A DNA stretch of 64,000 nt from Chloroflexota bacterium (lineage in GTDB: Bacteria; Chloroflexota; Anaerolineae; Anaerolineales; Anaerolineaceae), in assembly GCA_012517865.1 (NCBI GenBank), contig JAAYUC010000008.1:85767-149766 (forward strand). The letters are read 5' to 3'. Position numbers and translations under genes: made by a program. The stretch's first letter is position 1. Every line of letters begins with the position of its first letter. Below the pieces are notes generated by a model, which was given only the letters and a program-made list of their open reading frames with translations, was not told the origin of the DNA and did not search any database. This document shows positions 12,489 to 39,635 of this stretch, piece by piece.

Positions 12489-12886
12489 GGGGATGCCAGG
12501 TCTCGACGGGAGAGGCTGGTCCCGGATTGCGAGCCGAGAGGTACCGACCTCGTAAAATCAGTACAACCAACAAGTGCCAAAAGCACAAACTACGCTACCC
12601 TCCCTCTCGCTGCATAAGCGGGAGCGAAGTAGCTGACCTCCAGAAGTGAGGTCGCGTCTCCTGAGGCCGTCTTTCTGGCCGGACTCAGTCAAGGCGTCAT
12701 AAAAGCCGGAACGCTGCCAGGTGCGCCGTGAACCTGGCCTAAGAGGGCTTTCGGGTCCAAGCGGATAGTCTGCGTGAAGTTTGGTCAGTTGACCTTCACG
12801 CGGATGAAATTGAATAACTGACTACGCTCGTAGAAATCCGAGGGTCTAATCTTTCGGACGCGGGTTCGACTCCCGCCATCTCCACC
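12489..12886 (+). ncRNA. ssrA: tmRNA (ssrA)
   Basis: 5' GGGGATGCCAGGTCTCGACGGG and 3' GGGTTCGACTCCCGCCATCTCCACC pair as tRNA-like ends; internal tag GCC AAA AGC ACA AAC TAC GCT ACC CTC CCT CTC GCT GCA TAA = AKSTNYATLPLAA*. Confidence 0.96.
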
Positions 12887-12921
12887 TAAAAAGAAACCGG
12901 TTCAGGCCGGTATCTTTTCTT
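12887..12921 (+). terminator. Probable terminator downstream of tmRNA
   Basis: ACCGG-ttcagg-CCGGT followed by ATCTTTTCTT. Confidence 0.6.
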
Positions 12922-15067: not shown

Positions 15068-15139
15068 TGTTCCCGGTGAGACTCGAACTCACATGACCGG
15101 CTCCGGGGGCCGATGCCTTGTCCATTAGGCCACGGGAAC
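15068..15139 (-). tRNA. tRNA-Arg (anticodon CCG)
   Basis: GTTCCCG/CGGGAAC acceptor, anticodon arm TCGGC-CCCCGGA-GCCGG, T arm GTGAG-TTCGAGT-CTCAC; CCA not encoded. Confidence 0.9.
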
Positions 15140-18931: not shown

Positions 18932-19005
18932 GGGCGGATAGCTCAGTTGGTCAGAGCGCATCTTTTACACAGATGAGGTCGCAGGTTCGAGCCCTGTTCT
19001 GCCCA
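18932..19005 (+). tRNA. tRNA-Val (anticodon TAC)
   Basis: GGGCGGA/TCTGCCC acceptor, anticodon arm CATCT-TTTACAC-AGATG, T arm GCAGG-TTCGAGC-CCTGT. Confidence 0.95.
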
Positions 19006-26502: not shown

Positions 26503-26575
26503 AGCCAACGGTGGGAATCGAACCCACGACCGGGCGCTTACGAAGCGTCTGCTCTGCCGGCTGAGCTACGTTGGC
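26503..26575 (-). tRNA. tRNA-Thr (anticodon CGT)
   Basis: GCCAACG/CGTTGGC acceptor, anticodon loop TTCGTAA, T arm GTGGG-TTCGATT-CCCAC. Confidence 0.92.
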
Positions 26576-37128: not shown

Positions 37129-37710
37129 TTAACATATTTTCAAGGGAAAGCGGGATAATGCGGTATACACCGGCCTGCTTGGGGTGAGCACACTCTGGTA
37201 AAGGATGAGTTCCCTGAAATATTCGGGTTCTGCGTGGAATTCTTTTATCGCCGTGACCTGCTGCGCGACGCGCGCTTTCTGTTCATCGGATGCGTTTCTA
37301 TCCAGGCGGCCAAGCGTAAGGTGCGGTTTAAATCTGGTCTCATCCTCGAAACCCAGCGGCAGAAGCGCGCCGCGCAAGTCTTCTGCCAGCTGCCTGAGCT
37401 TTGGGTTATTATCCAATCCCAGCCAGATGGTTTGCGCGTTCCGCAGGGAAGGGAAACAGCCTGCTCCAGAAAGCCGGACAGGTATCCTTGGGAAATTCTC
37501 CGCTACGGCCGCGAGGCGCGGCGCGATGTGACGGATCTTGACATCCGGAACTTCCCCGAGGAACTGTAAGGTGAGATGGTACAAATCTGGCGAGACCCAA
37601 CGGATTGGTACTCCGCGCAGTTTTTCCTGGAGTTCCTTTGAAATAGCCCCCACCTTCGTAAGCGTGTCCTGAGAAAAATCGCAAGCAACAAATAAGCGCA
37701 CCAATTTCAC
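37129..37710 (-). CDS. thpR: RNA 2',3'-cyclic phosphodiesterase (ThpR/LigT family)
   Basis: Two HxTx motifs: YHLTLQFLGEV and PHLTLGRL. Confidence 0.92.
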   Translation of the reverse strand: MKLVRLFVACDFSQDTLTKVGAISKELQEKLRGVPIRWVSPDLYHLTLQFLGEVPDVKIRHIAPRLAAVAENFPRIPVRLSGAGCFPSLRNAQTIWLGLDNNPKLRQLAEDLRGALLPLGFEDETRFKPHLTLGRLDRNASDEQKARVAQQVTAIKEFHAEPEYFRELILYQSVLTPSRPVYTALSRFPLKIC

Positions 37711-37815
37711 AGCACTATTATATCAAGCGGGCCTGACAGGGCGCGCAAAATTCCGGTTTTTTTCAAAAACAATCCGGCAAGAAAAACCTTGCGCGCTCTT
37801 TTCAGATAAGTTGAA

Positions 37816-38031
37816 TTATGGTATAAGAAAAGTACCCTGCTGTGTTTGTGATGCGGCCATTAAGTTTTGTACCAACACCTTTAAAATTGGTTCAAGCTCA
37901 TGCCAGGTGATGTGATAGACTTCGGTCAAGACTGATCCTGCAGGGAGAACCAGTCCTGCCTTTCGCAGGTTCAAAACATCTCCGCACACGGCATAGCGGG
38001 GAGGCCTTATTCTTAACGGGGGCTGCAACAA
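37816..38031 (-). CDS. Small hypothetical ORF (71 aa), uncertain
   Basis: Open frame only; lies just upstream of the glmS-like RNA on the other strand. Confidence 0.3.
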   Translation of the reverse strand: MLQPPLRIRPPRYAVCGDVLNLRKAGLVLPAGSVLTEVYHITWHELEPILKVLVQNLMAASQTQQGTFLIP

Positions 38032-38048
38032 CCAAATAACAAAGATTT

Positions 38049-38233
38049 AGCGGCTGAGTCTCATTTTGAGATGACGAGGTGGAGGTTCCTTCTCGCGAGA
38101 GGAGTGTTAACCCGGTTTCCGGGGAAAATCGATAGATCAGCGGATGCCTCCGAAACCTATCACGGGTTTCAATCTTCCTGTATTAAGCAGTAACTAAAAC
38201 CGAAGGGCGACCTGCGGCACAAAAAATGCTTAG
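38049..38233 (+). ncRNA. glmS-ribozyme-class RNA in the glnA leader
   Basis: A|GCGGC start; P1 GTCTCA-TTT-TGAGAT (38058-38072); GACGAGG-TGGAGGTT core; P2 GGAGG (38081-85)/CCTCC (38147-51); ATC-GATA-GAT; GCGGATGCCTCC; P3 GAAACC/GGGTTTC (38152-38170); AAAACC-GAAGG-GCGA-CCTGC-GGC P4.1-like (38200-38217); P4 TTAAGCA (38183-89)/TGCTTAG (38227-33). Strings closely resemble remembered B. subtilis and T. tengcongensis glmS ribozymes. Confidence 0.82.
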
Positions 38234-38297
38234 TGAGCAGACCGGCTTCAGGTCTGAAATCGCTGAAGCATTTAATCTGTTTAATGAGGAGACTGCC

Positions 38298-39635
38298 GTG
38301 GATACTAAAGATTTGCTTAAGCGCGTCAAGGAAGACAAAATAAAATTTATTTCTTACCAGTTTACGGATATTAATGGGGTGGTCAAATCTCTGGATGGTC
38401 CGGTGGACCGCCTGGAGGAAAGCATTGAGAACGGCATTTGGTTTGACGGTTCATCCATTGAGGGGTTCGCTCGAATCCAGGAAAGCGACATGCATTTGCG
38501 GGTGGACCCGGATACCTACGCGATTTTACCTTGGTCGCCGGATGAACTTAAACGGGCTAGAATCCTCTGCGATATTCTGCGCCCAAATGGAGAACCTTTT
38601 GAAGGGGACCCGCGCGGCAGGCTGAAAACAAATCTTAAAAAGCTGAAGGAAGAGCAAGGCTGGACTTTGAATATCGGTCCGGAGCCGGAGTTTTTTCTGT
38701 TTCTGCGGAACGGGTCCGAGTCTATCCATCCGGTTCCCTATGATATTGGCAGCTATTTTGACTTTTCGGCTAACGACCAGGCAGTGATTGTCCGCACCGA
38801 ACTTATGTCCGCCCTCAAACAAATGGGGTTGAATGTGGAGGTCGGTCACCACGAGGTTGCCTTGGGCCAGCACGAAATCGACTTTCGCTTCGACGACGCG
38901 TTAAAAACCGCTGACAACGTGCTCACTTTTAAATCCGCCATTAAGGCGATTGCGGCCAAGCACGGCCTGATTGCCTCTTTCATGCCGAAACCCGTTTTTG
39001 GTATTAATGGCTCGGGGATGCACTGCCATCAATCCATCAGCGCTAACGGCGAGAATTTATTCTATGCCGAGGATGACCCCAATCACCTTTCAAAAATTGC
39101 TTACGGCTACATCGCGGGGCAATTGGCACACGCGCGGGCTTTATCGGCCGTGGTGGCTCCGAGTGTGAATTCATACAAACGCCTGGTTCCTGGATACGAA
39201 GCCCCGGTTTATATCGGCTGGGCGCAGGTGAACCGTTCCGCGTTAATCCGCATTCCCATGGTATCTCCTGGAAACAAGGGTGGTGTGCGCATAGAATTAC
39301 GCTTCCCAGACCCCTCTGCCAATCCTTACCTGGCTTTCACGGCGATGCTTGCGGCCGGATTGGATGGGATTGAGCGCGGATTGGAATGCCCGCCTCCGCT
39401 GAATAATGTGAATGTGTATGAATTGTGCGAAAGCGAGCGGCGTGAGATGGGCGTGGATGTGCTTCCGGGTTCTCTCAAAGAAGCCGTGGATGTCTACCTG
39501 ACCGATCCGCTGCTCCATTCCGCCCTGGGAGAAGACCTTTCAAAAAAATTCGTGGAAACCCGCCTGGCGGAATGGGAAGAATACCGCATACATGTATCAG
39601 ACTGGGAAGTAAGGCGCTACCTGGAAGCGATTTAG
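38298..39635 (+). CDS. glnA: Glutamine synthetase type I (GTG start preferred; ORF track start is 38226)
   Basis: FTDINGVVKS, WFDGSSIEGFARIQESDM, GPEPEFFLF, INGSGMHCHQS, NRSALIRIP; GAGGAG SD at 38286-38291 before GTG. Confidence 0.95.
   Translation: MDTKDLLKRVKEDKIKFISYQFTDINGVVKSLDGPVDRLEESIENGIWFDGSSIEGFARIQESDMHLRVDPDTYAILPWSPDELKRARILCDILRPNGEPFEGDPRGRLKTNLKKLKEEQGWTLNIGPEPEFFLFLRNGSESIHPVPYDIGSYFDFSANDQAVIVRTELMSALKQMGLNVEVGHHEVALGQHEIDFRFDDALKTADNVLTFKSAIKAIAAKHGLIASFMPKPVFGINGSGMHCHQSISANGENLFYAEDDPNHLSKIAYGYIAGQLAHARALSAVVAPSVNSYKRLVPGYEAPVYIGWAQVNRSALIRIPMVSPGNKGGVRIELRFPDPSANPYLAFTAMLAAGLDGIERGLECPPPLNNVNVYELCESERREMGVDVLPGSLKEAVDVYLTDPLLHSALGEDLSKKFVETRLAEWEEYRIHVSDWEVRRYLEAI

Follow-up and report, generated by a model that had tools for sequence, protein, structure and literature searches.

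A glmS-class ribozyme element in the leader of the glutamine synthetase gene glnA of Anaerolineales

The glmS ribozyme, a textbook example of a one-gene device, is an RNA switch that cuts itself when glucosamine-6-phosphate (GlcN6P) is plentiful and normally resides on the gene for the enzyme that produces this sugar. That enzyme, GlmS, consumes glutamine in the reaction, and degradation of the cleaved glmS mRNA of B. subtilis is aided by RNase J. At the enzyme level, glutamine synthetase (GS) of E. coli is cumulatively and allosterically feedback-inhibited by GlcN6P among other compounds. In their 2011 survey, McCown, Roth and Breaker reportedly found all but two of 463 glmS ribozymes in glmS mRNAs, and they are said to have described variants from Deinococcus-Thermus, likewise in glmS leaders, that carry extra stems in the catalytic core. 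Metabolite-controlled leader RNAs of glutamine metabolism genes also include the glutamine riboswitch (RF01739), which responds to glutamine, acts without cleavage and has an unrelated fold. Our search of the open-licence PMC set retrieved no account of a glmS ribozyme attached to glnA, although an earlier mention outside this set is possible; PMC3766115 lists the glmS motif and PMC2258182 treats it as a regulator of glmS.

We analyzed a stretch of 64,000 nucleotides (hereafter the window) from a Chloroflexota genome assembly of 1.9 Mb, whose closest named glnA relatives belong to the Anaerolineaceae (Chloroflexota, class Anaerolineae). Its + strand carries, in this order, a 6S RNA gene (37831-38006; RF00013, 47.1 bits for a gathering score of 46.4), the element described here (38038-38241) and glnA, which codes for a type I glutamine synthetase (38298-39635; TIGR00653, 538.5 bits for a cut-off of 429) and had already been named as the host gene in a preliminary description of this DNA. 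A Shine-Dalgarno sequence, GAGGAG, and the GTG start codon of glnA at 38298 occupy positions 38286-38300. An ATG at 38226, inside helix P4, was rejected as the start of glnA because the ATG starts of two relatives, L190 and L191 (90-91% identical), align to the GTG.

The glmS ribozyme model RF00234 aligned end to end (model positions 1-167) with 38038-38241 on the + strand at 34.9 bits, with E-values of 2.6e-6 in a 1-kb scan against 4227 families and 1.1e-6 genome-wide. The match is thus significant, yet about 2 bits under the gathering score of 37, so that a default Rfam scan remains silent on the element; for this reason the search threshold was lowered and a lineage model brought in. Orthologous glnA leaders score above gathering with the same model (37.3-53.1 bits), and the only other RF00234 match of the genome (42.3 bits) lies upstream of glmS. 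The assignment to the glmS class made in the preliminary description is borne out, and the strings and helices that it had listed are found where it had placed them. Location in a glmS mRNA is usual for RF00234 and stands outside the definition of the RNA; here the element is upstream of glnA and a separate copy serves glmS. No match to RF01739 was obtained in 37600-38600 at E-values up to 10. Plain minimum free energy folding of the window was unremarkable (z −1.5), as expected given that the RNA is pseudoknotted.

All the parts of the class could be placed in the window copy: the cleavage site, P1, P2, P2.1 (CGA/UCG), P2.2, P3, P3.1, P4 and P4.1. The predicted self-cleavage site, A|G at 38049-38050, is positioned by the RF00234 alignment and by the invariant GCG that follows. 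It is joined to the 5′ strand of P2.2 (38050-38055), read as G1 C2 G3, a bulged G4, C5 and U6, which faces A38139, G38140, C38141 and G38142. The P1 hairpin (38059-38071, UCUCA/UGAGA; double-sided changes in 5 of 6 pairs) leads to ACGAGG (38074-38079), which contains the active-site guanine and the 5′ strand of P2.1 (38075-38077 paired with 38129-38131). The 5′ strand of P2, GGAGGU (38081-38086), pairs with GCCUCC (38146-38151). The core loop contains two extra hairpins supported by covariation (38089-38104 and 38111-38123), which also occur in glmS copies of the class. Next come GAAAAUCG and UCAGCGGAUGCC, the invariant or nearly invariant columns (38124-38148) that hold the cofactor-pocket strand and the 3′ strands of P2.1 and P2.2. 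The 3′ part consists of the P3 hairpin (38152-38170, placed by covariation), the P3.1 pseudoknot in which UCAC of the P3 loop (38160-38163) pairs with GUGA (38233-38236; covariation), P4 (38184-38189 with 38227-38232) and P4.1 (38200-38217), the last two placed by covariation and by the RF00234 alignment. The extra core stems resemble those of the Deinococcus-Thermus variants, which reportedly occur in glmS leaders, in another phylum.

Two helices lie beyond RF00234. P0, recognized by covariation, pairs leader nucleotides 5′ of the cleavage site (38042-38047) with the strand 3′ of P3 (38171-38176); in an alignment of 33 leaders (A1), 86% of its cells are paired and 6 of its 7 pairs have changed on both sides, and it was recovered as well in a mixed set that includes glmS copies. 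P0 begins at 38042, which lies 5′ of the start first proposed for the element (38049). The other helix, P5, pairs CUUCC with GGAAG around P4 in the leaders of relatives and was not seen in the window copy.

Covariation across the same 33 leaders, one of which (L108) precedes a 46-aa ORF instead of glnA, strongly supports the proposed structure. In total 91.3% of cells are paired, a measure on which the control with slid partners somewhat favours the structure because the latter had been derived from sequences in the alignment itself. The covariation argument is carried by two-sided changes, which affect 51 of the 73 pairs, and the covariation score of 0.393 compares with 0.179 for shuffled alignments and a maximum of 0.124 when the partners are slid. 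Paired cells amount to 100%, 98% and 98% for P2, P2.1 and P2.2, which form the double-pseudoknot core, and covarying helices also support the P3-P3.1 pseudoknot and the P4/P4.1 domain. GCG, ACGAGG and GCGG are invariant in the 33 glnA-type leaders and, together with AAAAUCG, in 59 mixed glnA and glmS elements, while the A of A|GCG is conserved in more than 90% of the 33. The helix covariation that the preliminary description had looked to related glnA leaders for is very strong.

The ribozyme in the glnA leader is conserved throughout the order Anaerolineales. A search with the unmodified RF00234 model covered 299 genomes from the class, followed by 41 from the family and 41 from the order, and the genes flanking each match were classified by tblastn. 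Many genomes proved to contain a pair of elements, located ahead of glmS and of glnA respectively, and glnA-linked matches of up to 53.1 bits were found in many genomes besides that of the window. In 40 family genomes, a lineage model (R1) combined with a GlnA search placed the element close upstream of glnA in 25 of 31 orthologues, several of the remainder being cut by contig ends or distant paralogues. Because glnA and glmS copies both went into building R1, there is some circularity in its E-values, which does not affect the results of the Rfam model. In a named collection of 80 glnA loci, 69 have the element, among them those of the cultured Bellilinea caldifistulae (L206), Thermanaerothrix daxensis (L217), Longilinea arvoryzae (L235), Levilinea saccharolytica (L240) and Ornatilinea apprima (L259).

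The glnA-linked copies have a single origin, distinct from that of the glmS-linked copies. In a tree of 59 elements, all glnA copies and one extra copy from Longilinea form one clade (support 0.977). The P4.1 hairpin is part of the periphery that stabilizes the ribozyme core; a strict pattern for this type of hairpin was matched by 23 of 29 glnA leaders, against 0 of 17 for glmS leaders in the same family. glmS-linked ribozymes of the Anaerolineaceae such as L001, L034, L048 and L051, and others, have no recognizable P4.1 hairpin. Since P4 is kept in the glnA copies and not in the glmS copies of the family, the two have diverged, and their sensitivity may differ.

A terminator-like hairpin before the gene likewise distinguishes the leaders, with 24 of 29 for glnA and 2 of 17 for glmS in this family. 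In most relatives it follows the ribozyme as a U-tailed hairpin with GGCAUGCC arms, and the strands of a candidate antiterminator pair, GGCAU in the terminator arm and AUGCC in the core, are both nearly invariant. The GGCAUGCC form is absent from the window, where the terminator has no equally clear counterpart. The window has instead a downstream hairpin (38224-38273; predicted fold −24.6 kcal/mol, z −3.4) that reuses the 3′ strand of P4 and a strand of P3.1 and, because these strands are shared, is mutually exclusive with P4 and P3.1. This modelled competition provides a lead towards a switch.

The glnA clade further departs from the described ribozymes in the geometry of P2.2. Canonical P2.2 comprises C2-G56, G3-C55, C4-G54 and C5-G53 with nucleotide 6 bulged (PMC7125110). 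In the glnA clade the helix reads C2-G56, G3-C55, C5-G54 and U6-A53 with nucleotide 4 bulged (T. tengcongensis numbering). A census of 123 elements, clean for its glnA part and with some glmS rows taken from imperfect pattern picks, identified the bulge-4 form in 77 of 80 glnA-linked and none of 40 glmS-linked elements. The 70 copies linked directly to glnA have GCU (62), ACU (5) or UAU (3) at nucleotides 4-6, always with A53; ten more copies in which glnA is a later gene have GCU, and neither GCU nor ACU occurs in any of the glmS copies of the census. Judging from sequence, the simplest pairing for the glnA copies leaves nucleotide 4 bulged and pairs U6 with A53, whereas the UAU copies can pair U4 with G54 and bulge nucleotide 5, like glmS copies with CAU. 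The pairing of GCU with AGC suggested in the preliminary description was thus right, and corresponds to P2.2 of this clade. A bulge at nucleotide 4 is precedented in vitro, where C4A combined with A6C yields the same rearrangement as a partial rescue in a mutant library (PMC7125110), and the glnA ribozymes offer a natural example of it.

We consider it likely that the glnA mRNA carries in its 5′ leader a glmS-class ribozyme that self-cleaves with GlcN6P and thereby represses glnA. GlcN6P would bind the ribozyme and act as its cofactor, the RNA would cut at A38049|G38050, the downstream piece that carries glnA behind a 5′-OH would be degraded by RNase J, and GS synthesis would fall when the amino-sugar supply is ample. 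The proposal draws on the observed fold, intact catalytic core, conservation, covariation and single origin, and on an RNase J-family protein encoded in the genome (581 bits); from these we infer the remaining steps. Because GlmS consumes glutamine and GlcN6P inhibits GS, the ribozyme can be read as an RNA-level form of GS feedback, with the same signal and target as in E. coli but with the mRNA in place of the enzyme as the point of control. The link between amino-sugar status and amino-donor supply envisaged in the preliminary description accordingly holds, as a supported interpretation. In most relatives, the terminator-like hairpin that separates the ribozyme from glnA hints at a further, attenuation-like layer of control, absent from glmS leaders.

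That hairpin, found in most glnA leaders of the family and few of its glmS leaders, together with the competing hairpin of the window, could also mean that the RNA has kept its fold but no longer cleaves, and instead works through the downstream terminator as a riboswitch or attenuator. We regard this as highly improbable, given that A|GCG and the ACGAGG strand are conserved as expected under selection for cleavage. A change of ligand within the glnA clade, to glutamine or another amine with the fold retained, would suit a target gene whose product is glutamine and a clade with its own P2.2 geometry, periphery and terminator; it is nevertheless very unlikely, because the active-site and cofactor-pocket segments are identical in glnA and glmS copies and the altered P2.2 differs only in the place of its bulge, and ribozymes changed in this way retain part of their function with GlcN6P in vitro (PMC7125110). 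The score of the window copy under gathering could be taken for a chance resemblance or for a decaying, functionless copy of a glmS leader, but order-wide retention at glnA and the strong covariation contradict this reading and leave it barely credible.

The 6S RNA gene upstream raises a different question. 6S RNA is a global transcription regulator, and in the window 43 nt separate its 3′ end from the cleavage site. The gene is single-copy in the genome, as judged from one match (183.5 bits) to a 6S lineage model (R2) that includes the window's own sequence. Among 73 named loci, R2 detected a 6S RNA upstream and in the same orientation in 21, and the ribozyme comes directly after it in 20. 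Six loci (L218, L226, L233, L246, L247 and L251) have a gap of only 25-29 nt between the end of 6S RNA and the cleavage site, from which co-transcription is inferred as there is no room for a promoter. A simple promoter scan of the window region returned none, but neither did it pick up TATGGTATAAG, the likely promoter of 6S RNA. A co-transcript of 6S RNA, ribozyme and glnA is accordingly possible in the window and the six short-gap loci.

Such a transcript could even mean that the ribozyme chiefly forms the 3′ end of 6S RNA, through a releasing cleavage that is either constitutive or GlcN6P-dependent, with glnA merely downstream. The same-strand arrangement, the short gaps without a visible promoter and the single 6S gene would all suit this explanation, which we nonetheless find unlikely: 6S RNA was not found upstream of most glnA ribozymes, and several loci in which the two are further apart (L261, L266, L242 and L209) have a readable TTGACA-type promoter between them. 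A combined arrangement, in which GlcN6P would set the 3′ end of 6S RNA and shut off GS from one 6S-ribozyme-glnA transcript in a part of the order that includes the window's organism, is less doubtful but still tentative. The end of 6S RNA might then be one made by a ribozyme.

GlcN6P-responsive repression of glnA, our preferred reading, may extend to related genes. In L149 (G047) and L169 (G011), the ribozyme is followed by glmS and glnA in the same orientation, likely as an operon, and L189 (G034) has the gene row ribozyme-FAD oxidase-gltB-glnA. A gltB-like glutamate synthase gene follows the ribozyme in L153 (G192), L118 (G364) and L123 (G289). The copies at gltB, glmS-glnA and gltB-glnA suggest that GlcN6P governs a small regulon for the assimilation of amino nitrogen. 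With the order-wide glnA ribozyme, these relatives would turn a one-gene device into a regulon that connects envelope amino sugars to nitrogen assimilation, and the paralogous pair within one cell, differing in periphery and P2.2, constitutes a natural case for studying the tuning of ribozyme sensitivity. In a sister family (f2), genes for an AraC-type regulator and an EamA exporter stand between the ribozyme-terminator unit and glnA (L133, L136, L148, L152 and L171).

Further copies lie upstream of a CofD/YvcK-phosphohexomutase fusion gene (L018, G246) and of DegT/DnrJ aminotransferase genes (L030, G087; L150, G059). A third, glnA-type ribozyme of Longilinea (L108:2001-2215, G324) precedes an acidic ORF of 46-51 aa that matched no Pfam family and might encode a small protein regulating nitrogen metabolism. 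Elsewhere in the window, we located a tmRNA gene (12489-12887; RF00023, 174.7 bits) and three tRNA genes (15068-15139, 18932-19005 and 26503-26575).
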